Positions 43,633 to 58,983 of a stretch of DNA of 64,000 nt are shown here, piece by piece. A model generated the notes under the pieces. It was not told where the DNA came from and made no database searches. It was given only the letters and a program-made list of their open reading frames with translations. Within the stretch, counting starts at the first letter, position 1, and every line of letters begins with the position of its first letter. Origin of the DNA: Sporosarcina ureae (GTDB taxonomy: Bacteria; Bacillota; Bacilli; Bacillales_A; Planococcaceae); the NCBI RefSeq assembly GCF_002109325.1, contig NZ_CP015348.1, positions 275,501 to 339,500 on the forward strand, given 5' to 3'. Made by a program: the position numbers and the translations under genes.

Positions 43633-44603
43633 GTGAAAAAATGGTCATTATTTGTATTCATATTTGCCTGTATGCTTGTGATCTCCGCATGCGGATCGAA
43701 AGAAACGGATACACAAACAGACAAATCGTCTAGCACTACTCAAGAAGGCACGGAATCGACTGAAATCAAGATTAAGCATGAACTTGATGATCAAGAAGTA
43801 GTTTTGAATAAAGTTCCAGAAAAGTTGTAGTATTGGATTTTGGTGTTTTAGATACTTTGGATTCATTAGGCATTGAAGTTGCAGGTGTTCCACAAAATGC
43901 GGTACCTGAGTATCTAAAAAAATACGCTGGATCTGAGTATACGAATGTCGGAAGTTTAGTGGAACCGGATTTTGAAGCAATTGATGGAATGAAACCAGAC
44001 CTTATTATAATCGGAGATCGTCAAGCTGAAATGTATGACGAATTCAAAAGTATTGCCCCAACTGTTTATATGAGTGTCGACTTCACGAACTATATCGATT
44101 CCTTTACAAATAATATGGAAACGATTGCGAGTATATTTAATGAAAAAGAACAAATCGACATAGAACTAGCTGAAATAAAAGAAAAAGTCGAGGCTGTTCA
44201 AGAGAAAACGATAGATCTAGATGCGAAAACGTTAATTGTCATGGTCAATGAAGGTAAAATAAGTGCCTACGGGCCGGGTTCTCGTTACGGTGGATTCATC
44301 CATGATGTCGCTGGATATAAACCGGTAGATGAAAACATTGAAAAAGCGAAATTTGGTCAATCCATTAACTTTGAATATATAACGGACAAAAATCCAGACA
44401 TTATCTTTGTGGTTGACCGTAGTGCAGTGCTAAATACCGCGCATGATAGCACGAAGGAAATATTTGAAAATGAGCTTGTGAAAAGAACAACTGCGTACAA
44501 GAATGACCATATTATTTATCTGGACACAGAAGCATGGTTTTATGGCGGCGGATTGCAATCATCGAAAGTGATGGTTGAAGATACAAGTGCGTATTGGAAT
44601 TAA
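43633..44603 (+). pseudogene. Siderophore-binding lipoprotein (YclQ/FeuA-like), frameshifted
   Basis: GTG start after GAGG; lipobox LVISACG; then a FhuD/TroA-type binding protein of about 323 residues (EYLKKYAGSEYTNVGSLVEP, PDLIIIGDRQAEMYDEF, NPDIIFVVDRSAVL, DHIIYLDTEAWFYGGG). One base is missing near 43823: VPEK should continue VVLDFGVLDTLDSLGIEV, but the current frame reads KL and stop. Restoring one G rejoins the frames. It would deliver ferric siderophore to an ABC permease, none of which is encoded nearby. Fur box upstream. Confidence 0.88.
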
Positions 44604-47103: not shown

Positions 47104-47290
47104 GACGATCCCCTCCTATCCTTCTTTAACCAACACCCATGTTCTTAATGAAAAACTAACTTCCAGTAAGAACATGGACCACTCTAGTATTCTTACGTTT
47201 ATATAGTAGAGTAGGTTTCACTTTTTTGACGGTTTCGAATTCATAGAACTATGTCCCGGCCTTCTTCCTATTGTTACTGCTCTATCTATT

Positions 47291-47324
47291 TAAAAAAGAA
47301 AACACCGCAATATGCGATGCTTTC
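47291..47324 (-). terminator. Terminator of the B12-riboswitch operon
   Basis: CATCGCA / TGCGGTG stem with 3-nt loop followed on the minus strand by TTTTCTTTTTT, just past the transglutaminase-like gene. Confidence 0.65.
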
Positions 47325-47337
47325 TTCTACTTCCTAT

Positions 47338-49557
47338 TTATTGATGATGCAAAACAAATCGCAATTTCTTCAACCCTTTTTTCGATCTCTTCACCGCCAC
47401 ATAAACTTGCGCAAATAACTTCTCTACCTTTGCGCGTTCTTCATTGGTCACACTATGCGGACTATATTTGGCTTTTTGATAAATTTTCAAACTGTCTTCT
47501 GTGTCTTGTCTTAGTTGCGGATCAATTCCCCCAACTGCGTCAGGTATTGTTTTAAATGAAGGTAGTTTCGCAACAACTTGTTCTTTTTCTAACATTTGCA
47601 CCATTAGCTGGACATGGTTCACAACAGCTACTCGATGATCTTTCACTTGGAGTTTGTGCTGACGTTTTCTCTTTCTTAAGACGTACCATACAAACAGGAT
47701 GAATAGAATCACAACGATGATCATATTCAACCAGAACCACAACACCGTGTTTGGATTCACTTGCTTTGCATCTTCTGGTTTGTCCTGATCTTGCTGCACT
47801 TCCGTCGTATCATTCGGTTCAGGTTCAGCTGCACCTCCGCCAGTGACATCCGGTGAATCAGCGCCCGAAGCTGGATAGTCTTTTTTATTGATTTCTGGCA
47901 TTTTCTCAGCATACCCCGGTGTCACTTCAATCGGCACCCAGCCGACCATATCGACGTAGATTTCTGTCCACGCATGAGCGTTTTTCTCGCTGATGTTGAT
48001 TTCACTGAATGACTGAAGATCTTTCACGTCATCCAGCCCAACGATATAGCCTTCCGCATAACGCGCAGGTGTGCCGAGCATTCTGAATGCTAATGTCGCG
48101 ACCGTCGCATAGTGAACGGAGTAGCCTTCTTTTGACTCTTCCAATATGCCCGTCACAAAATCCTGATCTTGTATCGGTTCGGCATGTTCGTTATAACTCA
48201 TCGACTGTGCTAAGAAACGTTCCACTTCTTGAATCGTTTGTTCATATGGTAAACGTCTTTCTAAATCGAGTACGTTCTCGTCTAAATGGTTACGCAACAC
48301 ATTCAAGCTATCTTGCGGCACAGTAAGATATTCATTGTAGACATATTGATTGTAATGACTTTCACGACGTAAATAGTCAGTGTTTTTTGTTGCATATAAC
48401 GCATTAGCGATTTGTGGATAATCGGTGTAGGGCGTTAACATATAGTTCATTTCTACTGTGCGTCTGCCGAAGATCCCTGTCGCATGCAGCGCGTCTGCTT
48501 GTTTCGTACGGATGAGGTTTGTATCGATCCCTGCCAATTCATACGGTGCATACATATATCGACTTGATGCACCGACATTTTGAATGATGAGTTTCGCTTC
48601 TTCGTACTTCTCTGGCAAACTACTTTTTGCAGCCAAGCTCAACTGTTTCGCTCCGGTGAAATCTTCTTTCTCTAGCGCTTCAAGCAACGACTTCTCTTTC
48701 CTATATGCGTCGCCCTCGATTTCCTTCCAGCCGACCGGTGTGTAAGTCGAACCGACGAATCCTTTCAAATACAGTGGACTCGGATTTTCCATCACGACTT
48801 TTAACACGGTATGGTCGTCCGGTGTAAACGTGGAAAGCCGATTGAAGTTGCCGCCTGTCAGCACAGGTGCCCCGCCTTTAAAATAGCGTACTTTCTCCCC
48901 TTGATAACGTACAGTGTCTTCCCATTTTGAACTGCTCGTAAATTCTCCATTCCCATTCTGATTGATTGCCGTATAAGCAAACATCAGCACGACCAATGAA
49001 ATAGGTAAGATCGCCATCCGTTTCCACCAACGCAATGAAAGTTGGTTCATATACAGCAGTGTCAAAATCAACACTGCGAAAAACAAAATGTCCAGGATCA
49101 ATGATGGAGACGTGCTTAAAAGTACTTGAATCGACCAAATCACAAGTGCAAGCGTCACGACGATCCAACGTTTTTGATTGACAATGGCGTAATAAATGGC
49201 ACTACCGCCCAATAAAGCGATTTGACCGAGGATCATACCGTTCAGCCAGGAGTCTGTTTCATTTACAGACAGTACATCCATATAGATATGATTGTATTCT
49301 GCAAGTGTAACGAACAACGCGTTGATCGTCCGCTTCACGTCATCCACGTACTTCGATAGGAAGATTAAACTGAAGACGACACTTGCGATTAATACGGCGT
49401 CGCCACCACGTTGTGTCCACTGAATGCGCGCGACCATCCACAGCAACACGAGCACCAGTGCAGGTCCGATATGAATTTCTGGAAACAACATCGCACGGAT
49501 CACAAGGAAGGCCGCCACTAGCACACTATACGCTACTACTCCATTGAGCCATTTCAT
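47338..49557 (-). CDS. Transglutaminase-like membrane protein (TgpA/YebA-like) lacking the catalytic Cys
   Basis: 739 residues. Six N-terminal membrane helices (about 5-200), an extracellular linker, a transglutaminase-like domain (about 440-560), a Gly/Glu-rich linker, one more helix (TVLWFWLNMIIVVILFILFV) and a DUF4129-like tail. His and Asp of the core are present (NAHAWTEIYVDMVGWVPIEV), but the usual GYC is GYSVHYATVATLAF with Ser480 (TCC, one change from TGC). Hence possibly a pseudoenzyme. Its ATG overlaps the DUF58 stop by 4 nt; in such triads MoxR and DUF58 act with it in envelope assembly. Confidence 0.85.
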   Translation of the reverse strand: MKWLNGVVAYSVLVAAFLVIRAMLFPEIHIGPALVLVLLWMVARIQWTQRGGDAVLIASVVFSLIFLSKYVDDVKRTINALFVTLAEYNHIYMDVLSVNETDSWLNGMILGQIALLGGSAIYYAIVNQKRWIVVTLALVIWSIQVLLSTSPSLILDILFFAVLILTLLYMNQLSLRWWKRMAILPISLVVLMFAYTAINQNGNGEFTSSSKWEDTVRYQGEKVRYFKGGAPVLTGGNFNRLSTFTPDDHTVLKVVMENPSPLYLKGFVGSTYTPVGWKEIEGDAYRKEKSLLEALEKEDFTGAKQLSLAAKSSLPEKYEEAKLIIQNVGASSRYMYAPYELAGIDTNLIRTKQADALHATGIFGRRTVEMNYMLTPYTDYPQIANALYATKNTDYLRRESHYNQYVYNEYLTVPQDSLNVLRNHLDENVLDLERRLPYEQTIQEVERFLAQSMSYNEHAEPIQDQDFVTGILEESKEGYSVHYATVATLAFRMLGTPARYAEGYIVGLDDVKDLQSFSEINISEKNAHAWTEIYVDMVGWVPIEVTPGYAEKMPEINKKDYPASGADSPDVTGGGAAEPEPNDTTEVQQDQDKPEDAKQVNPNTVLWFWLNMIIVVILFILFVWYVLRKRKRQHKLQVKDHRVAVVNHVQLMVQMLEKEQVVAKLPSFKTIPDAVGGIDPQLRQDTEDSLKIYQKAKYSPHSVTNEERAKVEKLFAQVYVAVKRSKKGLKKLRFVLHHQ

Positions 49558-50600
49558 ACAGCGGATCCCTCCTTATTCTCCGAGATCACGATCGTTTGAT
49601 ATTCTGTGCTGCGCGCATTATTTGTTGTCAACACGATACAGTTTGGATACGTTCTTCTCAACGTTTTCCATTGTTCATCCGACATCGATAACGCGGATGC
49701 ACTTTTTGTTAGTACTTCTTTTATCGCCAGTGCGGCTTCGCGTTCATTTTTAATCGTCAACTGCTCACTTGTTGTGTGATCTACTAGAAGCTGGACTTCA
49801 TGATGGCCTGCGACATAGGAATACAACAACGCGGAAAACGTTTCGATGAATTCATTATAGAGTGCGACGCGATTTGTAAACGACGTGAAATCAACTGTCA
49901 TCATTACCGCATCCCCTATGAGCGTTTCATGCTGTTTGACGAATAGCTCATCCACTTTACTCGACAACTTCCAATGAATTTGTTTGACCGAGTCGCCTGG
50001 TTTATACACCGATACTTCCGCAAGCTCTTCGCCATCGATTTTCTTCATCGGAATCGCACCTGGCGTTTGCAGCACATGCTGATTCTGCTCGATGCGTTGA
50101 AGCTTCAAGAAATACGGATTCGGCATGATCAACATCGCGGACTGCGTATCGATCTTCTGCACTGAACGGAAGAACGCGAAACCGTCTTTGATGGTCAACT
50201 GTTTCATTCTTATCGTCACTTGCCCCATATATTTTTGCGGCAGAATGAATGCAAATTCTTCAGCACTCTTCGCGGGGATGGATAAGATGTGCTCGTGAGT
50301 TTCTTGTCTGCCTGTGAATACGTGCTCGATGACGAGTTGGATATGTAGTTGTGTGACGGGTAATCGACTCGTGTTTTCTACGCGTAGTTGATAGCCCATC
50401 TGATCATTCTTATATAGTTCATTCGTTGCTATGATCTCGCAATGTAATTTTCCTTTTACGAGGTAAACACTTAACACGAGCCACAGCCAAACAATGAATG
50501 ATCCGACTGCGAACAGTAGCGCGAAATGCGTCGTCGTAAAGATGAAAAATGCGAGCGTGAACAGCAGCCAGACGACGCTGATCAGTAATGTAAACAGCAT
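49554..50600 (-). CDS. DUF58 protein (YeaD2-like)
   Basis: 348 residues. Two N-terminal helices (LLISVVWLLFTLAFFIFT, LLFAVGSFIVWLWLVLSVYL), a beta domain, then the DUF58 block VSVYKPGDSVKQIHWKLSS, and a von Willebrand A-like end (AVMMTVDFTSF). Such proteins pair with MoxR ATPases. AAGGG precedes its ATG, 12 nt after the MoxR stop; coupled to the next gene by ATGA. Confidence 0.88.
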   Translation of the reverse strand: MLFTLLISVVWLLFTLAFFIFTTTHFALLFAVGSFIVWLWLVLSVYLVKGKLHCEIIATNELYKNDQMGYQLRVENTSRLPVTQLHIQLVIEHVFTGRQETHEHILSIPAKSAEEFAFILPQKYMGQVTIRMKQLTIKDGFAFFRSVQKIDTQSAMLIMPNPYFLKLQRIEQNQHVLQTPGAIPMKKIDGEELAEVSVYKPGDSVKQIHWKLSSKVDELFVKQHETLIGDAVMMTVDFTSFTNRVALYNEFIETFSALLYSYVAGHHEVQLLVDHTTSEQLTIKNEREAALAIKEVLTKSASALSMSDEQWKTLRRTYPNCIVLTTNNARSTEYQTIVISENKEGSAV

Positions 50601-50611
50601 ACGATCAGCCC

Positions 50612-51556
50612 TTAAAATGTCGCAAGCATTGCTTGGTCGGGCGTGGCAACACTTTGCAGTAGTTTTTCGAGTAGCGCATCTTGTTCTGCTTCAGCATCTG
50701 GTACGCTCGATAGGATGACGCGGTGTCGGCTCGTCGGTAACCACACGGCATGGACGTCTTCTGGAATGACGTAATCGCGGTCTTGCAGGAATGCATGTGC
50801 TTTCGCCATCTGACAGAGTGCGAGTGCGCCACGCGGGCTAATTCCTTGATGAATTGACGGATGGTTTCGCGTTTTCTCCGTAAGTGCCGTGACGTAACGC
50901 AAGATTTCTTCGTGAATGAAGAGGTCTTGTACTTGCTGTTGAAGCGCAAGTAATTCGTTTTTTGTGATGATCTGTTCCAGTGAAGATAGCGGATCGGTCT
51001 GCTGTCGATTTTTCAGCATCTCGACTTGATCTTCAAAATCAGGATATCCGACACTTAATTTTGTCATAAAACGGTCGATTTGCGCGCTAGGTAACGGCTG
51101 CGTTCCGATCGTGCCGTACGGATTTTGCGTTGCAATGACGTGAAACGGTGCGGGCAATGGATACGTCACACCATCGACTGTCACTTGTCTTTCCTGCATC
51201 GCTTCAAGCAATGCCGCTTGTGTTCTTGAAGACGTCCGGTTGATTTCATCGCCGAGCAATAAGTTACACATGACGGCACCTTCTTTAAAGACAAATTCGT
51301 TCTTTTCTTTATCGAACATCGTGAAACCGATGACGTCAGATGCCACGACGTCTGGTGTGAACTGGATACGGTTTGAATCAAGTCCGACGACCCGGCTGAA
51401 TGCTTTTGCGAGTGTCGTCTTCCCGACTCCCGGTAAATCTTCGAGCAGTACATGTCCTCCAGCTAGAAACGTCATCCATACTTTTTGGATGACGTCGTCT
51501 TTCCCGTTAATTACTTTTTTCATTTCATTGAGTACGTGTGTTGATTGATTGCTCAT
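50612..51556 (-). CDS. MoxR-family AAA ATPase
   Basis: 314 residues. Walker A EDLPGVGKTTLAKAF, Walker B LLGDEINRTSSRTQAALLEA, sensor-1 FHVIATQNPYGTIGTQPLP, sensor-2 region GISPRGALALCQMAKAHA. Cytosolic chaperone-like AAA+ that works with vWA/DUF58 proteins. ATG with GGAGGAAC upstream; 4 nt after the stop of the fused EcfA gene, so almost certainly co-transcribed with the ECF transporter. Confidence 0.93.
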   Translation of the reverse strand: MSNQSTHVLNEMKKVINGKDDVIQKVWMTFLAGGHVLLEDLPGVGKTTLAKAFSRVVGLDSNRIQFTPDVVASDVIGFTMFDKEKNEFVFKEGAVMCNLLLGDEINRTSSRTQAALLEAMQERQVTVDGVTYPLPAPFHVIATQNPYGTIGTQPLPSAQIDRFMTKLSVGYPDFEDQVEMLKNRQQTDPLSSLEQIITKNELLALQQQVQDLFIHEEILRYVTALTEKTRNHPSIHQGISPRGALALCQMAKAHAFLQDRDYVIPEDVHAVWLPTSRHRVILSSVPDAEAEQDALLEKLLQSVATPDQAMLATF

Positions 51557-51559
51557 TCG

Positions 51560-53185
51560 TCAGTTCCTCCTGTTGTTGCTGTTCACAGCTTCCACGATAT
51601 CGTCCGCTGTAATAGCAAATGGAAATAATCCTCGCGCGATTTTACTCGCCGCGGTTGTATAAAATCGATTGGACGTAAAGAACGTCTTCGGGTTATTGAT
51701 CGCGATCAGTGATTTGTCGAACAGCATGCCGACACGTGTTGACACTTCTGCCGCAAATTCTATGTCGTGCGTTACGATGATCGTCGTGATATTGCGTTTT
51801 TGCAGTGTTTGAATCAACTGAACCACTTCTTGTTTCGACATGACGTCCATTCCTTTAGTCGGTTCGTCGAGCAATAAAATAGCTGGATTATGCAGCAATA
51901 ATTTCGCCAATGCGATCTTTTGCTGCTCACCGCCACTTACATCAAAAGGGTTTCTCTTTGCTAACTGTTCAATTTGTAGCTGTTTCATCATATCCGTAAC
52001 AGTGGATTCTCTTTGCTCTTTCGGCAATTTTTGCACAGTAGCCAACAGTTCTTCGTTCACTGTCGAGTGCATAAACAACGCTTGCGGGTTTTGCGGCAAT
52101 AAAACGATATTGCCTTTCCACTTAGCTGGCACGACGTCATCCATAAGAATCTTACCTGCATACGGCTTATGCAATCCCGCAAGCAACTTCAAGAACGACG
52201 ACTTGCCGACCCCGTTGCCTCCGACGATCGTGAAAATTTCTCCACGGTGAATCGTCAGGCTCATATCCGCAAGCAAATCATCGCTTTTACGGTTATAACG
52301 GAAATACAGATTTTTTACTGTAATGAGAGGGGGATGCTTTTTCCTCATCGGATCCATCGGCGGTACAGCGGGTGGATAGCGCCGAATGAAGTCCATCCCT
52401 TCGCGCACAGTAATCGGCGTGTTCTCCAGAAAACCAAGCTTATGATAGACACGCATCGCCGCAGTGAGTGCGTCAAGCATCGGATGGTCGAGTAACGAAT
52501 GACCGATCAACTTCGGCGTCGAATCGTACAGAAGCGAGCCGTTTTCCATGAATAATACGCGGTCACAGACAGGCAACAATTCTTCTAGCCGATGTTCGAC
52601 AATGAGAATCGTCATGCCGAGTTCTCGGTTGATTTTATCAAGCAACGTCAAAAACTCGGAAGCCGCGATCGGATCGAGCTGTGAAGTCGGTTCATCGAGC
52701 AATAAAATTTCCGGCTCCATCGCAAGCACTGCCGCTAAATTGACGAGTTGTTTCTGCCCGCCCGATAAGTCGCTAATACTGTCATGTAACCAGTTCTGAA
52801 TGCCGAAGAAACTGGCCACTTCCGCAATCTTCCGCTGCATCTCTTCCGTCGCGACCCCCATGTTCTCGAGGCCGAACGCGAGCTCTTGCCAAACTTTTTC
52901 CATGACCATCTGCTCGTCGGGATTTTGCATCATATAGCCGATCGCGGTCGCCGTCATTGTAGCGGGCAGGTCATCGAGTTTTCGACCACTGAAATACACA
53001 TTGCCGCTCAATTTACCAATCGGTCGCATTTCCCGCTTCAGCATCTTGAGTAACGTCGACTTTCCAGAGCCCGTAGGACCAAATAACGTCACGAATTCCC
53101 CTGGCATAATCGAAAAGGAGACGTCACGCAAGACTTGTTGTTCTTCATAATAGAAGTTTAGATTTTCGACTGTAAGTATCGCCAT
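51560..53185 (-). CDS. ECF transporter fused A-A' ATPase
   Basis: 541 residues, two ABC domains in one chain. Domain 1: GPTGSGKSTLL, Q-loop MMQNPDEQMV, LSGGQKQLVNLAAVL, EILLLDEPTSQLDP. Domain 2 (from about 290): GGNGVGKSSFL, LPQNPQALF, VSGGEQQKIALAKLL, ILLLDEPTKGMD, VTHDIEFAAEV. This is the EcfA/EcfA' pair, here fused, that drives vitamin uptake by EcfT-coupled S proteins. AAGGAGAG before the ATG; overlaps the EcfT end by 28 nt. Confidence 0.93.
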   Translation of the reverse strand: MAILTVENLNFYYEEQQVLRDVSFSIMPGEFVTLFGPTGSGKSTLLKMLKREMRPIGKLSGNVYFSGRKLDDLPATMTATAIGYMMQNPDEQMVMEKVWQELAFGLENMGVATEEMQRKIAEVASFFGIQNWLHDSISDLSGGQKQLVNLAAVLAMEPEILLLDEPTSQLDPIAASEFLTLLDKINRELGMTILIVEHRLEELLPVCDRVLFMENGSLLYDSTPKLIGHSLLDHPMLDALTAAMRVYHKLGFLENTPITVREGMDFIRRYPPAVPPMDPMRKKHPPLITVKNLYFRYNRKSDDLLADMSLTIHRGEIFTIVGGNGVGKSSFLKLLAGLHKPYAGKILMDDVVPAKWKGNIVLLPQNPQALFMHSTVNEELLATVQKLPKEQRESTVTDMMKQLQIEQLAKRNPFDVSGGEQQKIALAKLLLHNPAILLLDEPTKGMDVMSKQEVVQLIQTLQKRNITTIIVTHDIEFAAEVSTRVGMLFDKSLIAINNPKTFFTSNRFYTTAASKIARGLFPFAITADDIVEAVNSNNRRN

Positions 53186-54027
53186 TTGACACTCTCCTTC
53201 GCTTCATAGATAAACGGCAACAGCATCAGTAAGCTAATAATGACATAATGCCCTGTACCTAGTGTCTGTTCACTAATTTCCGGGTAATACTGTGTTTGGT
53301 GTTGCGTGAAGTACCCGATGTAATAGAGAAGAAATAAAACGAGTCCTGCAGTCAGCACACCGTCACGCTTCGTAAAGCGCATGATTTTATACTGCGTCCT
53401 CGCTTTCGTCATACCATATCCACGTGCTTTCATGACGTCTGGCTTCACAAAGACGAACTCAGCCGTCTGGACAAGTGTCTGCCGCCATAAAGCGAACGCT
53501 CGATGAAATTTCACGAATCTGCTGGATACTTTGTAATAACCAATCCCACGCTGCGCCATGTGCTTTTCCTGCCATTTCGTTTTAAATATCGGAATGAACC
53601 GCCATAGCATCGAAACGAGAATACCGAGATTAGCAGACACTTTCGTCACTACAGCAAGTATTTTATTCGTCGTGAAAATCTCGAAATAACTCTTCATCCA
53701 AAAACACGTCGCGACAATGGCCCCCGCTAGAACGAGACCTTTCGTTACAGCTTCCCGCGTCACCGCATGGTCGTTCAGGAAAAACAAGGGAGTGAAACCG
53801 TTATGCACATACGATGGGTACGCGAGCGCAATGAATAGAAAGACGAAAAAGTAATACAGTAGATCTTTACTTGCCGCCCGTACTCCGTGCAACATGGAAA
53901 AATACAGAATACCGCCGACGAGCGAAAGCGCCACGATGATCGGATGAAACGAGCTGAACATCGTGACGAGGACAACGGTCATATAGACAAGTAGCAATAC
54001 AGGATGAAAGTTCGAAAATGCGCTCAT
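53158..54027 (-). CDS. ECF transporter T component (EcfT)
   Basis: 289 residues with membrane segments at both ends and a cytosolic coupling region. ARG motif analogues are visible: MAQRGIGYY and VMKARGYGMTKART, which dock on the two ATPases. Start ATG follows directly on the stop of the DUF4430 gene (TAG ATG). No S component is encoded beside it. Confidence 0.88.
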   Translation of the reverse strand: MSAFSNFHPVLLLVYMTVVLVTMFSSFHPIIVALSLVGGILYFSMLHGVRAASKDLLYYFFVFLFIALAYPSYVHNGFTPLFFLNDHAVTREAVTKGLVLAGAIVATCFWMKSYFEIFTTNKILAVVTKVSANLGILVSMLWRFIPIFKTKWQEKHMAQRGIGYYKVSSRFVKFHRAFALWRQTLVQTAEFVFVKPDVMKARGYGMTKARTQYKIMRFTKRDGVLTAGLVLFLLYYIGYFTQHQTQYYPEISEQTLGTGHYVIISLLMLLPFIYEAKESVKWRYLQSKI

Positions 54028-54582
54028 CTAGTTTCCTTCTTTCTTTGTTTGATGTATGTAGCCATCCAGATCCCGTCCTAGATCACATGTGTAGTGGAAT
54101 TCGACTTCATCGCCGTCATGCAGTTTGTATTGACTAACCCCCTGACTCGGGAATTCGCCGTTCACTTTATACATCCAACCACTTAATGGCCCACAATTAA
54201 ACTCATACAAATAGTTGATGCCTTGAACGTAAATACTATTGTAGATATTATAGTCGGCTCCTTGGTACTCCATCGGGATGCGGTGGTGGCGAGTCGCGCG
54301 GTCGAGAAGATCAAACGCGGTATCCCCGCTACGTAAAACATATTCCGATTTCGCAAGGATTTCGCCGTCCGGTTCGATATATTTCTCAAGGCCGGCTTTT
54401 AACTGGTCCATTGAATCGAGAACGGCATCACTGCGTATTTCGAGCGTCACTGTCTCTGAGTCTTCGGTAATTTCGTCGACATGTGTCAAATAATACTCTT
54501 CTACCGACTGGATTTTCGTTCCCGTAATGAGCCATCCGACAATAAAGAGGATGAATGCTACGACTAATAGATCTTTCTTCAT
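54028..54582 (-). CDS. Membrane-anchored DUF4430 (transcobalamin C-terminal-like) protein
   Basis: 184 residues. An N-terminal anchor (LLVVAFILFIVGWLITG) precedes one DUF4430 domain (about 85-180): GDTAFDLLDRATRHHRIPME, YEFNCGPLSGWMYKVNGEFP and GVSQYKLHDGDEVEFHYTCD. This domain is homologous to the C-terminal lobe of intrinsic factor/transcobalamin, which covers one face of B12. Inferred to present or cap cobalamin near EcfT. AGAGGG before the ATG, 9 nt after the toroid gene. Confidence 0.85.
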   Translation of the reverse strand: MKKDLLVVAFILFIVGWLITGTKIQSVEEYYLTHVDEITEDSETVTLEIRSDAVLDSMDQLKAGLEKYIEPDGEILAKSEYVLRSGDTAFDLLDRATRHHRIPMEYQGADYNIYNSIYVQGINYLYEFNCGPLSGWMYKVNGEFPSQGVSQYKLHDGDEVEFHYTCDLGRDLDGYIHQTKKEGN

Positions 54583-54591
54583 TATATCCCT

Positions 54592-56427
54592 CTAGTCTCT
54601 CTGACGCCTTCTTTTTTGAATTCTTAATAGAATTATAATGATCAACCCCGTCGCCACGATTCCAAGTAGCCATGAAATTCGCTTCGCACGAACAGCATTG
54701 TCGATTTGCGTTTTCGATTTTTTAAGATCTTCATAGTTTAAGACTTTCTCTTGATCGTATGGAGCCAATGCGTTGAATCGTTCCAAAATCGCATCCACAT
54801 TGTCACGGTCTTTACTTGTCAAATCAGTGAATGGATACAGTTGATCCAGCACCGTTTCGTTAATACTTTGTATTTCGGCTTCGATCTTCTCCATGTCTTC
54901 TTTATATCGATAGAGTTGTGCGAGCTCTGCTTCATAATCGTCTTTATTGTCCGCTTGTTCGAACTGATCAATTAGCGATACCACGTCGATATAGTGTTCT
55001 GTCGTAAGCGGTGTTGGAATGGCGTTGATTTTTTCTACATCTCGTTCATTGATATTTCGTGGCACAGTTTGCTCCTGATAAATTGGGGCAATCGTACCGT
55101 TTCCTTTCGTATAGACGTCGTAGTTTTCACTAAACGCAGGTAAATCAATTTCGATCGACTGTTTCTCTGCGGCTTCTACGAGCTTATGGAAGTTGTAGAC
55201 ATACGAGCGCTCTTCTATCGGGAAGTTTTCATATGTATCAAGTAATTGTTGAAGTTTTTTAGCGTCTATGTTGTCATGGATATCCTGAATGTCTTCCATC
55301 AATTCGAGCATTTGCTGCTTCATTTCGACTGGGTTTTCAGGACGGAAATCATACATCGTGCGGTAGCCATTTTCGAGTCGATAGAGCGATACGAGCGCGT
55401 AGAGCACTTGCTCGGACGCCATCGAGTTTGATTCATCTGGCAACGAAGACGGATTGTCCGCGTTATACGTTTTCGCATGGACAAAGCCTCCGTCGTCCAG
55501 TTGATAGCTCATGATGAAATCAAGCAATGAATGATCGCCTTTTACGAAGCGTTCGTCTTCTTCGGGATGAATGCCAAGAGACGTCAACGCGACGAGAACT
55601 TGTGCGGCACTTTCGACGTTGTCGTCATTTTGTGCACTAAATCCGCCAGACGACGTTTGCATATTCGATAATTTTTCGAGTGCTTCGTCAATGATCATAT
55701 GCATCGTTTTCGTTACTTCTTCATCCAAATCCTTCTGAATATACGTGAATTCTTCGGTACTTTGATAATACGGTGCGAGTGCCTGTACTGCCATCGCGGT
55801 CATATCCGGCTCCGCTTCGTTCCCGTAGAATGAAAATCCGCCATCTTCGAGTTGCAGTGAAATGATTTCTTTGATGATCTCGATTCTTTTCATGTCCGCG
55901 TCTTCTGGCACTTTATAACGCATACTGTCAAGTGTAATTAACCCCCAAATCCAGCCGTTAATGCCCTGTGCGCCGAGTGACGTCGTCAATCCACGGTTAT
56001 ACGTACCGTCCGAAATAAGATTGATGCCGAATACTGCTGTCGGGTCACCGCCAGCTGAAAGAATCGCCAGTGAAATCCGGTGCCACTCTGTCGCTTTCAT
56101 TTCACTAAGTTTTTCACTCGTTTTATAACGTTCAATAACATTGTTCTTGATGACCGCTAGATACGCGGAGTAATCGTCAGGATAGCCGATGCGGCCGAGG
56201 CCTACCGGATACCAATCACCATTCGTATTTCCCGCGTGCGCTAGAAACGGCTTACTGAGCAGCGGTGCCGATTCGTCAATTTGTTCATCTTGTTTTTTCC
56301 ACGCAATAATTTCTTCGATCGTGTGCAGCAGGGATTCTTCTTTTTCCGGTGTCGCGAACGCAACAGATGGCAGAAGCACTACTACCGTCATCGTAATCGT
56401 CACAAGCCACGCAGTTAATTGTCGCAT
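54592..56427 (-). CDS. Cell-surface alpha/alpha-toroid protein (terpene-cyclase/transcobalamin N-lobe-like)
   Basis: 611 residues. A signal peptide (MRQLTAWLVTITMTVVVLLP) is followed by a toroid of helical repeats (about 60-350): GRIGYPDDYSAYLAVIKNNV, LEDGGFSFYGNEAEPDMTAM, SSGGFSAQNDDNVESAAQVL, LDDGGFVHAK. These GGF...D/E repeats are those of prenyltransferase-like (alpha/alpha)6 barrels, the fold of the N-terminal domain of intrinsic factor and transcobalamin. A charged helical stalk (about 420-575) and C-terminal anchor (WLLGIVATGLIIIILL, RRRQRD) follow. No cyclase DxDD motif seen. Confidence 0.85.
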   Translation of the reverse strand: MRQLTAWLVTITMTVVVLLPSVAFATPEKEESLLHTIEEIIAWKKQDEQIDESAPLLSKPFLAHAGNTNGDWYPVGLGRIGYPDDYSAYLAVIKNNVIERYKTSEKLSEMKATEWHRISLAILSAGGDPTAVFGINLISDGTYNRGLTTSLGAQGINGWIWGLITLDSMRYKVPEDADMKRIEIIKEIISLQLEDGGFSFYGNEAEPDMTAMAVQALAPYYQSTEEFTYIQKDLDEEVTKTMHMIIDEALEKLSNMQTSSGGFSAQNDDNVESAAQVLVALTSLGIHPEEDERFVKGDHSLLDFIMSYQLDDGGFVHAKTYNADNPSSLPDESNSMASEQVLYALVSLYRLENGYRTMYDFRPENPVEMKQQMLELMEDIQDIHDNIDAKKLQQLLDTYENFPIEERSYVYNFHKLVEAAEKQSIEIDLPAFSENYDVYTKGNGTIAPIYQEQTVPRNINERDVEKINAIPTPLTTEHYIDVVSLIDQFEQADNKDDYEAELAQLYRYKEDMEKIEAEIQSINETVLDQLYPFTDLTSKDRDNVDAILERFNALAPYDQEKVLNYEDLKKSKTQIDNAVRAKRISWLLGIVATGLIIIILLRIQKRRRQRD

Positions 56428-56445
56428 TCCGTCACTTCTCTTTCG

Positions 56446-58521
56446 TTACCATTCTTTCTTCCAATTATCATTCATGCCGTTTCCTGACGCTTCATGCCCA
56501 CCAATGTCTTTTCCGTAATGAAGAGTATAGCGCACTCTCACTACATCTCCATCTAAGAAATAGGCATCCGAGAAGCCGTAGTTCGGATAATCATTATTGA
56601 CGCTGAACATCCAGCCGGAACCATTCGCGAAATCGAATTCACTTAGACTATCCGGTGAATACGCATCGCGATTTGAAGTAGTGGAAACCTCCTCTACTAT
56701 TTCCCATAAATCGTCGGGAATCGCTACATGATTTAGCATGCCAGGCTTACTGACGTCCCGTAAATAAAAACTGCTGTCTAGATTTCCCGTTTTGCCGTAA
56801 TCATAGCCATGTTCTCGCATGAATTGGTCGAGGATATACGACCCTTTTTCCCCTTGATGAATATCCATTTTCGTCGGTTTGATCAAATACGGAACACCGA
56901 GAACGGAAGCTTCTAGACTAATCGTCACTTGTCCGATAATGCCATCTTCCGCCGGTGCAACGGACGTGATCATGAATGTCTCGGTCACGGTCACGGTCCG
57001 CTCTTCGTCGTCCCACACTTTGATGGTGACGGTGTTTTGTCCAGTTTGCAACGTCAGTTTATAACTCGTTTTTGCACTGTCATCCCAAGTGAATGGCACG
57101 TTTTCACCATTCACTTGCACAAGGACGTTTTTCCCTCTGATCCGTTCACCAGAAGCAGTCACTGGCCAAACGTTGATCGTTTTAATATCACCTTTGACTT
57201 TGCTGCCGGACTTGAGATCGGTTACGAGCTTCGGTGCATCGGGATCGACTTGTGGTTTTTCATTGACGTTCGGGTCGTTGTAGGAAATTTTATACTGTCG
57301 TTCAATTTGTTCGTCTTGATAGTTTCCTGATAATTTGACAACGTTCGTTCCATTGTTCAGCTGCACAACATAATTCATACCGTCTGCCGATTCGACCTTT
57401 TGATCGTTCACTGTGATGCTGAGTGATACGTCTGCTTCATTCGCAGTAGCTTTTGCGTAAAATGAAAACTCCGCGCTGTTAGCTTGTTGGTCTTTTAAGT
57501 CAGTGTTCAACTTGATCGAGATTTTTTCTTTCTCGTAGATCACAATATAGTTTTGCTCCGCTATTTTTCCGTTTACTTGCGCGGTAAGCTTGAACGTATT
57601 TTTTCCTTTGGTTAGCGTGGCTTTATAGGCACTGCCAGTCAGTGGTTTAAGTTCTTTGTTATTCATGAAGACCTTGAGCTTGGCATCTTGTTCACCTTGC
57701 GTAGCTGTTGCCGTGAATGAAATGATGTCTTCGGTCACCGTTTGGTCTTTTAGTTCGGTTGTGATCACGATATCTTGACTGTTTAAGGTCACGTGATACG
57801 ACTGGCTGACGCGCAAAAGTTTATTGTCCGATTGTTTATAGATCACTTGGAATTGAATATCGTTCGTGCCTTCTGTTAATAAAAGAACCCCTTTATAGTC
57901 ACTCAATTTCTTACCGTTTACCGTAACTTTCATTTCCTGGGCAATGAGTGTTTCATCCAAGTGATTTACCGTGACGCTGTACAATGGATCGGTAACGGTT
58001 TCATTATTGGTGATACTTGTTGTAAAATAGCGATTTTGCTGATCCGCGATGTCGACGATCTCGATATCTGGATGGTTGTTCGGTTTTGTTTTACCGGAAG
58101 CAGGTGTCGTGTTGCCACCAGCAGGGACTTTGTCATTTGGAGCCGGTTTCGTGTCCTGTGTAGTAGTCTCAGGATTAGCGAGTGGCTTATTCTGCGATTC
58201 CAGCTCGGTATTTTTTGGTTCTCGCGGCTGTTCTTCCGGCTTCTGTTGCGATTTGTCCGGAGTTGTCGGTTGTTGCGAGCTTGACAAGTTTTCTTGATCG
58301 GTCTTACTATCTGTCGTTTGATCGGATTCCGCATCAGGTAGTCCACCACTACCGCTAGCTAACTTCAGCGTAGAAGCTTCTACTTTTTCATTGAAATCAA
58401 ACGGAGCGGATTCTTCAGTCGATGTGGCTGCATAGGCAATCGTGCTAAATAATAGTAAGAATATGAGACTGTAATAGATTATGTTTTGATATTTCATGAA
58501 GGTGTTTTTCGTTTTTCTCAT
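56446..58521 (-). CDS. Secreted multidomain DUF4430 protein, first gene of B12 operon
   Basis: 691 residues. Signal/anchor (NIIYYSLIFLLLFSTIAYAA), a Ser/Pro/Gln/Thr-rich linker (about 45-150), four Ig-like beta domains (about 155-515) with repeated GTNDIQFQVIYK-, KGKNTFKLTAQV-, NGTNVVKLSG- and TGQNTVTIKVW-type cores, then a DUF4430 domain (about 530-675; GEKGSYILDQFMREHGYDYG, GSGWMFSVNNDYPNYGFSDA, DGDVVRVRYTLHYGKDIGGH). Probably reaches through the wall to display the cobalamin-lobe domain. ATG with GAAGGGATGG upstream. Directly behind the riboswitch. Confidence 0.87.
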   Translation of the reverse strand: MRKTKNTFMKYQNIIYYSLIFLLLFSTIAYAATSTEESAPFDFNEKVEASTLKLASGSGGLPDAESDQTTDSKTDQENLSSSQQPTTPDKSQQKPEEQPREPKNTELESQNKPLANPETTTQDTKPAPNDKVPAGGNTTPASGKTKPNNHPDIEIVDIADQQNRYFTTSITNNETVTDPLYSVTVNHLDETLIAQEMKVTVNGKKLSDYKGVLLLTEGTNDIQFQVIYKQSDNKLLRVSQSYHVTLNSQDIVITTELKDQTVTEDIISFTATATQGEQDAKLKVFMNNKELKPLTGSAYKATLTKGKNTFKLTAQVNGKIAEQNYIVIYEKEKISIKLNTDLKDQQANSAEFSFYAKATANEADVSLSITVNDQKVESADGMNYVVQLNNGTNVVKLSGNYQDEQIERQYKISYNDPNVNEKPQVDPDAPKLVTDLKSGSKVKGDIKTINVWPVTASGERIRGKNVLVQVNGENVPFTWDDSAKTSYKLTLQTGQNTVTIKVWDDEERTVTVTETFMITSVAPAEDGIIGQVTISLEASVLGVPYLIKPTKMDIHQGEKGSYILDQFMREHGYDYGKTGNLDSSFYLRDVSKPGMLNHVAIPDDLWEIVEEVSTTSNRDAYSPDSLSEFDFANGSGWMFSVNNDYPNYGFSDAYFLDGDVVRVRYTLHYGKDIGGHEASGNGMNDNWKKEW

Positions 58522-58577
58522 TCAATCCATCCCTTCTTTTCTAGTAAAGGCATGCTATACGCAGTGACTAATTCATT

Positions 58578-58612
58578 AAAAAAGTCCCCACCTCCTGATA
58601 GAGATGGGGACC
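58578..58612 (-). terminator. Riboswitch expression-platform terminator
   Basis: Minus strand GTCCCCA, 14-nt loop, TGGGGAC, then TTTTTT (58584-58590 with 58605-58611). It lies between the riboswitch and the first gene, so premature termination when B12 is bound is the likely mode. Confidence 0.85.
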
Positions 58613-58658
58613 ATGTATGTTCAATAATTAGACAGCGCAAATTGAATGATACACAATT

Positions 58659-58806
58659 CACCCTTTACCGGAAGGCGTCATGCTTACATACTTTGGCAAG
58701 TCTCCTGACTTAGGGATATATTTTCCCATTACAGTGGCCGGACCGCTCAGGATTTTCACCTGATTCCTATTTACTCTTCGTTTACTTGACGAAGAACCAA
58801 AATATT
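58659..58806 (-). ncRNA. Cobalamin riboswitch
   Basis: Minus-strand leader with the conserved cobalamin-riboswitch blocks: GGTGAAAATCCTGAGCGG, CCGGCCACTGTAATGGG and AAGTCAGGAGACTTGCC (the B12 box). P1 can form between ATATTTTGG (58797-58805) and CCAAAGTAT (58688-58696). A P13-like hairpin at 58660-58678 has a CCGG loop complementary to the CCGG in L5, fitting the kissing interaction. Followed by a terminator, so it should switch off the operon when cobalamin is plentiful. Periphery is compact. Confidence 0.9.
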
Positions 58807-58983
58807 CTATATAACTGCTACTAAGCATATAGTTTTTGCAGGGTAAAATCAATAGACGGTGTAAGTACATTGCGCGATTTTGTCATCGCATGAGACTGTG
58901 TTTTCTATTTTAGTTACAGCATTTTATTTAGCAAAGTGGTTCCTATAGCAAGCGATCGGTGTTCAATAACCGCATTCGTTAAT

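Follow-up and report, generated by a model that had tools for sequence, protein, structure and literature searches.

A cobalamin gene set of the energy-coupling factor (ECF) type, with additional surface components, was reportedly predicted by Rodionov et al. in 2009. The present work concerns an operon headed by a cobalamin riboswitch in Sporosarcina ureae, contained in a stretch of 64,000 nucleotides (the window; C1:275501-339500, the genome being one contig of 3.38 Mb), and compares it with the closest described systems. In the passages of Burroughs et al. 2007 that concern such systems (PMC1796856), B12 scavenging was predicted for toroid and transcobalamin-like domains encoded beside CbiO and CbiQ in Gram-positive bacteria, with toroid fusions in either order, a surface location and paired paralogues, and animals were proposed to have acquired their carrier from Gram-positive bacteria. 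The main text of that paper uses none of the terms riboswitch, ECF, S component, MoxR, DUF58 or transglutaminase. The S. ureae operon resembles its SLBB (DUF4430)/toroid proteins in the lobes, the surface location, the paralogous copies per operon and the presence of CbiO-like and CbiQ-like genes. The concept of B12 capture, which also underlies a preliminary description of the locus, had thus been predicted already.

On the transporter side, ECF-CbrT of Lactobacillus delbrueckii is a characterised cobalamin ECF transporter, and according to passages of PMC5997447, CbrT and seven other S components are predicted to use a common module. It is an ECF motor importing cobalamin, which is the task predicted for the motor of the window; it differs by having eight S components per module, whereas the S. 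ureae genome has one S apparently for two modules, plus surface capture proteins. ECF groups I (dedicated S) and II (shared module) are defined in PMC7755397, whose relevant passage has each group II module working with several S components. For the last genes of the operon, the comparison is with NorQ/NorD, where a MoxR-class AAA+ ATPase also works with a partner gene, and where, in the portion of PMC9976466 consulted, NorQD acts in cofactor insertion; the NorD partner has a VWA domain, whereas the partners in the window are a DUF58 protein and a transglutaminase-like protein lacking the catalytic cysteine, inside a B12 operon. In the literature searched, mostly titles and passages with few subscription papers, we found neither a link of MoxR, DUF58 or transglutaminase with cobalamin uptake nor an S-less cobalamin ECF operon. 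In the parts of PMC3597751 and PMC3751524 seen, cobalamin occurs beside some of these terms, without bearing on their role in B12 uptake. No assay was reported in the literature found on this kind of system.

On balance, and with moderate confidence, we favour the reading that the window holds a riboswitch-controlled, split transcobalamin-like corrinoid uptake operon that borrows its S component and includes a dedicated trio of MoxR, DUF58 and transglutaminase-like genes. The kind of system is the one predicted in 2007; an S component acting in trans and an integral trio with a Cys-less transglutaminase are apparently new variant features.

The riboswitch aptamer (RF00174) lies on the minus strand at 58678..58816. 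An Rfam model search of the window gave a full-length match (model positions 1-189) at 81.3 bits, over the cut-off of 31.5, with an E-value of 1.8e-18; this was the sole match above any gathering score in the window, and it was recovered again by a genome search. The aptamer is a short variant, in which 7 nt stand for 59 model positions, and within the genus its length is 139-142 nt at window-type loci versus 185-194 nt at other loci. A scan for hairpins and patterns placed a terminator hairpin with a T run at 58583..58612 (-), and the riboswitch and terminator announced in the preliminary description were thereby both confirmed. Cobalamin riboswitches were also found at all 20 genus loci fetched, window-type and other (these leave out matching loci of some genomes, e.g. 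G054), and at 19 of the 25 family loci searched. Two of the six remaining family loci have it on a separately fetched upstream piece, one is a decayed operon, one stretch starts at the first gene, and in two none was seen. Homology therefore supports both the identity of the riboswitch and a predicted cobalamin control of this operon and its homologues.

Downstream of the riboswitch, eight genes follow on the minus strand in the order Ig-like/DUF4430, toroid, DUF4430, EcfT, EcfAA', MoxR, DUF58 and transglutaminase-like, separated by 18, 9, 0, -28, 3, 11 and -4 nt. The five tightly packed genes already described, with the first four of these gaps, are all present, but the unit does not end after EcfAA' as had been thought, the trio following at 3 nt. 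A strong intrinsic terminator (47290..47330, minus strand, -19.2 kcal/mol, z -6.6), absent from the pattern-scan listing, stands directly 3' of the stop codon of the transglutaminase-like gene, and the transcription unit thus spans ~11.5 kb, from 58816 to about 47290.

Three surface proteins are encoded first. The gene at 56446..58521 (-) encodes a 691-aa beta-sandwich/Ig-like protein with a C-terminal DUF4430 lobe, recognised with Pfam and with our own profile. By eye its start resembles a signal peptide, from which we take it to be secreted, and its beta-sandwich part matches Glucodextran_B and Cadherin-like. Its DUF4430 domain scored 21.3 bits (Pfam cut-off 23.8) and 26.1 bits in the genome search, and reached an E-value of 2e-37 with the profile built in this analysis. 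Next, the gene at 54592..56427 (-) specifies a 611-aa alpha/alpha-toroid protein (Pfam Prenyltrans, E 3e-7; AlphaFold2 pLDDT 91.0, pTM 0.84), whose C-terminal part is helical and carries one membrane helix, seen by eye as a hydrophobic C-terminal helix followed by a basic tail. Among named records the closest to this toroid, at 95% identity, comes from a S. ureae metagenome-assembled genome (MAG); S. ureae DSM 2281 and Sporosarcina sp. P32b are likewise among the nearest. The third protein, of 184 aa (54028..54582, -), is a membrane-anchored DUF4430 protein (E 4e-18) with a hydrophobic N-terminal helix by eye; its ratio of non-synonymous to synonymous substitution rates (dN/dS), 0.02-0.05, is the smallest among the three surface proteins.

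That toroid and DUF4430 lobes belong together is indicated by two natural fusions: a 590-aa protein (locus L230) made of toroid, membrane hairpin and DUF4430, that is, the second and third gene types of the window, and a 1046-aa protein (L205) joining the first and second types, Ig-like/DUF4430 with toroid. In a Foldseek search of the PDB with the L230 model, ranks 1 to 15 were all transcobalamin, intrinsic factor or haptocorrin (E-values 2.8e-10 to 6.5e-8), the next match being at 2.7e-5. This fused relative has therefore a toroid lobe and a beta-grasp lobe with the fold of transcobalamin and intrinsic factor, in agreement with the earlier proposal that DUF4430 and toroid correspond to the two lobes of transcobalamin. 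The beta domain of TC2 was also matched by a sequence profile (E 0.016), while a profile of the small DUF4430 proteins matched nothing relevant. With VIA-align 2, terpene cyclases and sugar epimerases outranked transcobalamin, mostly through the toroid alone, and a viral structure library gave no match at E 0.001. We conclude that the surface proteins of the operon are likely cousins of the animal blood B12 carriers, on whose origin the bacterial lobes bear. Animal transcobalamin, intrinsic factor and haptocorrin are alike in the fold of both lobes, as judged from the fused relative, but consist of one soluble chain, toroid then beta domain, whereas the window encodes three anchored or secreted chains beside an ECF motor, with a B12 binding that is predicted. 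Splitting the lobes over several proteins had been held to be a novel architecture; this was rejected, as the toroid and DUF4430 are commonly encoded by genes of their own, both in the family's S-bearing operons and in Clostridia.

The motor is made of two proteins, and its presence in the same unit bears out the proposed link of the capture proteins to an ECF transporter. EcfAA' (51560..53185, -), of 541 aa, consists of two fused ECF ATPases, with two ABC_tran domains and a match to TIGR04520. The EcfT-like transmembrane protein (53158..54027, -; 289 aa) is divergent: its Pfam CbiQ match (E 0.62) is far weaker than the cut-off demands, and it was identified by homology to clear EcfT proteins and by its QRG and ARG motifs (XRG motifs). 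Between Sporosarcina genomes, dN/dS was 0.06-0.12 for this EcfT and 0.07-0.10 for EcfAA', compared to 0.06-0.13 for the EcfT of the second operon described below. These values reject a dead S-less module in the window. Purifying selection acts on seven of the eight operon genes, the test having covered these seven and excluded the transglutaminase-like gene.

No S component is encoded in the operon: EcfAA' and MoxR are 3 nt apart at the place where relatives encode S, and none was found within 12 kb around the operon. An S hidden inside the operon was rejected on the gaps given above and the lack of any S-like frame at the locus, and the group I arrangement, with S encoded with its module, is thus not that of the window operon. 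The S gene is missing at its usual place in Sporosarcina, Lysinibacillus alkalisoli, Caryophanon and Kurthia.

The genome nevertheless has a candidate partner. Among its eight cobalamin riboswitches, the one at C1:2153550 heads a second operon encoding two fused DUF4430-toroid surface proteins, of 709 and 779 aa, the longer with S-layer homology domains, followed by EcfT, EcfAA' and a PF12822-type S, the B12-type S component at C1:2161014-2161709. DUF4430 was found at four places in the genome, all in these two operons (search to E 1). All 12 family genomes with a window-type operon hold exactly one B12-type S, outside the S-less module; the S-less junction was seen in 11 of them, the contig of G079 ending inside EcfT. 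This single S belongs to the second operon, except in G222, where it follows a second module that the S-less module directly precedes. The three genomes in which the operon is decayed (G018, G056) or lost (G024) have no B12-type S. Because one outside S accompanies the operon in 12 genomes out of 12, and all 3 genomes that lost the operon or keep it in decayed form have none, we conclude that S is probably borrowed from the second B12 operon of the same genome. Relatives with S, without S and with a decayed operon make up a natural experiment on this point.

The pattern across the family genomes points to one S with two modules. S-less modules were also met in the named collection. Seven S-less named genomes, largely of the same species as the family set, have one S each; in Desulfosporosinus the S-less module precedes a second toroid-EcfT-EcfAA'-S set that holds the only S match of the genome; the S matches of MAG L215, whose module is S-less, lie on other contigs of its genome; and L211 was scored S-less in the recount of all frames. 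In a control with the same S query on 14 S-bearing genomes (by recount or chosen so), 9 gave one match, 4 two and 1 three. In an EcfT tree built from 61 rows, the 11 rows of family members without S group together as a single clade (support 97/96), whose sister rows have S and mostly also the trio (93/86). The S-less region of this tree has long branches, two long rows meet there, and Ruminococcus albus (L232) is labelled as lacking S though S-bearing; the topology fits a single S loss. Both this loss and the absence of S from the module are apparently new.

Traces of the loss may be seen in the motor itself. Between the window and Siminovitchia, identity is 40% for EcfT and 44% for EcfAA' (toroid 50%), versus 55% and 64% between Siminovitchia and Lactonifactor (toroid 49%). 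At equal toroid identity, the drop across the S loss is thus 15 points for EcfT and 20 for EcfAA', compared to 11 for the small DUF4430 protein and 3 for MoxR. Because EcfT and EcfAA' are less alike across the S loss while the toroid is not, we read their faster change as a sign that the motor probably adapted to a foreign S. In four other genera of the family, EcfT from S-less modules (L112, L113, L114, L127, L134) has an altered second XRG motif, which is intact in Sporosarcina; loss of this motif is a weak mark of the S-less state, as three S-bearing EcfT of Pseudogracilibacillus are also without it.

The trio consists of a MoxR-type AAA+ ATPase (Pfam AAA_3; 314 aa, 50612..51556), a DUF58 protein (348 aa, 49554..50600) and a 739-aa protein with a transglutaminase-like core (47338..49557), all on the minus strand. 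That the trio might be a neighbouring housekeeping one was rejected: a transglutaminase-like gene of the housekeeping kind, ~25% identical to that of the window, is present separately in all 61 genus genomes, and an additional copy, 80-100% identical, in 8 of them, five times beside the intact operon and three times (G018, G056, G024) with the B12 genes decayed or lost. The two kinds also differ at the active site. In an alignment, the catalytic Cys was found in 21 of 21 housekeeping copies, all from the genus, and in none of 46 copies from B12 loci, which have Ser (25, and also in the window), Ala (14), Asp (2), Asn (1), Thr (1) or a gap (3). These 46 rows correspond to 41 different sequences, some genomes counting twice, and include three Sporosarcina loci without intact surface genes, an opposite-strand copy (L230) and two rows, L253 and L261, that match poorly. 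The motif around the site is G[YF][SA]xH[YF]AT in 37 of the 46, versus GYCDN[FY]S in all 21 housekeeping copies. The Cys-less protein is seemingly a dead pseudo-enzyme, and its association with an AAA+ ATPase suggests a remodelling or assembly of surface proteins. The trio as a whole appears to be an integral and dedicated part of the B12 operon, which also appears to be new.

Within the genus, the window-type operon was found with the same gene order in 5 of 61 genomes (G000, G043, G019, G001, G030). A family search, with an EcfT query against 261 genomes, added seven genomes with window-type operons, from four other genera; both motor frames, EcfT and EcfAA', are broken in G084. A named collection was scanned with a toroid alignment, and the best 80 of 109 confirmed stretches (the named loci below) were annotated with our own profiles; the riboswitch counts above cover the genus and family loci. 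A fuller operon, of which individual loci may miss genes, is present in Siminovitchia, Pseudogracilibacillus, Anaerosalibacter and others, in the order large toroid, large DUF4430, Ig/DUF4430, toroid, small DUF4430, EcfT, EcfAA', S, MoxR, DUF58, transglutaminase-like. Clostridium cadaveris, a Ruminococcus MAG and Thermacetogenium have the trio at another position within the operon, and in all it occurs in at least three gene orders. In several Oscillospiraceae and one Clostridia MAG (L224, L227, L228, L229, L231, L235), Ig/DUF4430, toroid and MoxR/transglutaminase are found together, with no ECF genes within the stretch examined. Counting all frames, a MoxR or transglutaminase-like match lies on the same strand at 38 of the 80 named loci, and 34 have no complete EcfT-EcfAA' pair. 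The trio accompanies a complete pair at 24, where S adjoins EcfAA' in 16 and does not in 8, seven of the latter being from the family of the window and the eighth MAG L215. At genus and family loci, as had been anticipated in the preliminary description, toroid, DUF4430 and ECF genes co-occur under cobalamin riboswitches; the part of the expectation that did not hold is that split lobes are unusual.

The sequence of events would then be as follows. When cobalamin is scarce, the riboswitch would permit transcription through the operon. Three exported proteins, providing the toroid lobe and a pair of DUF4430 beta-grasp lobes that are borne by an Ig-like stalk and a membrane helix, respectively, would form a trap, from which cobalamin or a related corrinoid would be handed to an S component, with EcfT-EcfAA' powering import. 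The window motor would most likely work with the S of the second operon, giving two motors for one S, and the surface proteins would most likely depend on the trio for their assembly or remodelling. In its most specific form, two ECF motors share one S (the reverse of group II), are fed by a tethered split clamp, and are serviced by MoxR, DUF58 and the pseudotransglutaminase, which load, open or assemble this clamp; we hold this form as tentative, and rather lean against it being correct in every part. If it is true that one S serves two motors, this is a case outside the division between groups I and II, and if the trio acts as proposed, a Cys-less transglutaminase and an AAA+ ATPase would give vitamin uptake in Gram-positive bacteria a new step, that of assembly at the surface or of cargo release. 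Fused and split forms in one genome are compact test objects, and the natural fusions tell which genes cooperate.

Several observations weigh against a split corrinoid trap with a borrowed S. Corrinoid binding and transport by the operon members are predictions from sequence, fold and context. The L230 lobes match transcobalamin singly, their mutual placement differing (root mean square deviation 8-15 A over both lobes). With the window toroid alone, terpene cyclases lead the Foldseek matches and transcobalamin appears from rank 14 (E 0.018); a profile of 12 window-type toroids against the PDB gave no transcobalamin, terpene cyclases being best (E 0.0027). The co-occurrence behind S sharing comes from related genomes of five genera, hence few independent events, and R. 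albus, considered as a further S-less case, was rejected, S adjoining EcfAA' when all frames were counted. The small DUF4430 protein diverged across the S loss as well (62% vs 73% identity). G056 is without S, yet its EcfT and EcfAA' are open and constrained; this could be a recent decay or, alternatively, use without a B12-type S. Finally, G018, G056 and G024 have few or none of the B12 genes left, yet the trio is open in them, and MoxR and DUF58 are still constrained in the first two. This survival in three genomes suggests some independence of the trio, which may serve another purpose.

The source of S is the point on which another account departs, namely that a different S component serves the window module, or that a corrinoid precursor or some other cofactor is imported in place of cobalamin. 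Four further PF12822-like places in the genome, with E-values of 4e-5 or better, speak against borrowing from the second operon; we take these, from neighbourhood and sequence, to be RibU, BioY, ThiW and another vitamin S. The B12-type S tracks presence, absence and decay of the operon (the tracking covered that S only), and a cobalamin riboswitch heads the operon, so this account is in our view unlikely, even though the ligand assignment of DUF4430 is a prediction and group II modules, in the passage of PMC7755397 consulted, serve several S components. A motor working without any S, EcfT-EcfAA' acting on the membrane helices of toroid and DUF4430 by mechanotransmission, so as to open the lobes or release cargo with no substrate carriage, would account for the lack of S in the operon, for the greater divergence of EcfT and EcfAA' compared to toroid and MoxR, for the position of the membrane-anchored small DUF4430 gene, which adjoins ecfT with the toroid gene next, and for the constrained EcfT-EcfAA' of G056. 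The altered XRG motif of the four other S-less genera would fit as well, but the same motif is missing from the S-bearing Pseudogracilibacillus proteins, the ATPase and XRG motifs of the window are intact, and none of the three genomes without a B12-type S has kept the operon undecayed; we would be surprised if this mechanism were the right one.

It might also be that the operon simply duplicates, in an ordinary and redundant way, a B12 uptake operon already known from Gram-positive bacteria, having lost its S by drift and having the trio as a mere neighbour. The same genome indeed has a complete second operon and what we take to be a btuFCD set, and an intact copy is missing from 56 of the 61 genus genomes. 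Purifying selection on the seven genes tested, the trio inside the operon in several gene orders, and an operon transglutaminase that is a paralogue separate from the housekeeping one make such redundancy decidedly unlikely, despite a concept in print since 2007 (PMC1796856).

Some further observations were made at related loci. At 11 Clostridial toroid/DUF4430 loci, EcfAA' and S form a single polypeptide of 816-1018 aa (L237, L238, L240, L246, L247, L250, L251, L252, L257, L258, L260). In G030, a 1291-aa DUF4430/toroid protein (L068:2756-6631) has its own cobalamin riboswitch, with no ECF gene recognised nearby. Elsewhere in the source genome, a cobalamin riboswitch heads genes that presumably form the btuFCD set mentioned above, with cob genes, and those at L015 and L012 precede genes that we take to resemble metE and a ribonucleotide reductase set. 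The riboswitch at L010:2033-2223 (G000:C1:1368032-1368222; 113.7 bits) has no evident downstream gene on its strand, the next large frames being on the opposite one. Just downstream of another cobalamin riboswitch, a 458-aa frame (L011:8481-9857, -) gave weak ribonucleotide reductase matches under the Pfam cut-offs. Lastly, a TTG-start frame of 256 aa in the window (43833-44603, +) looks by eye like a siderophore/B12-type periplasmic-binding protein, perhaps a fragment.

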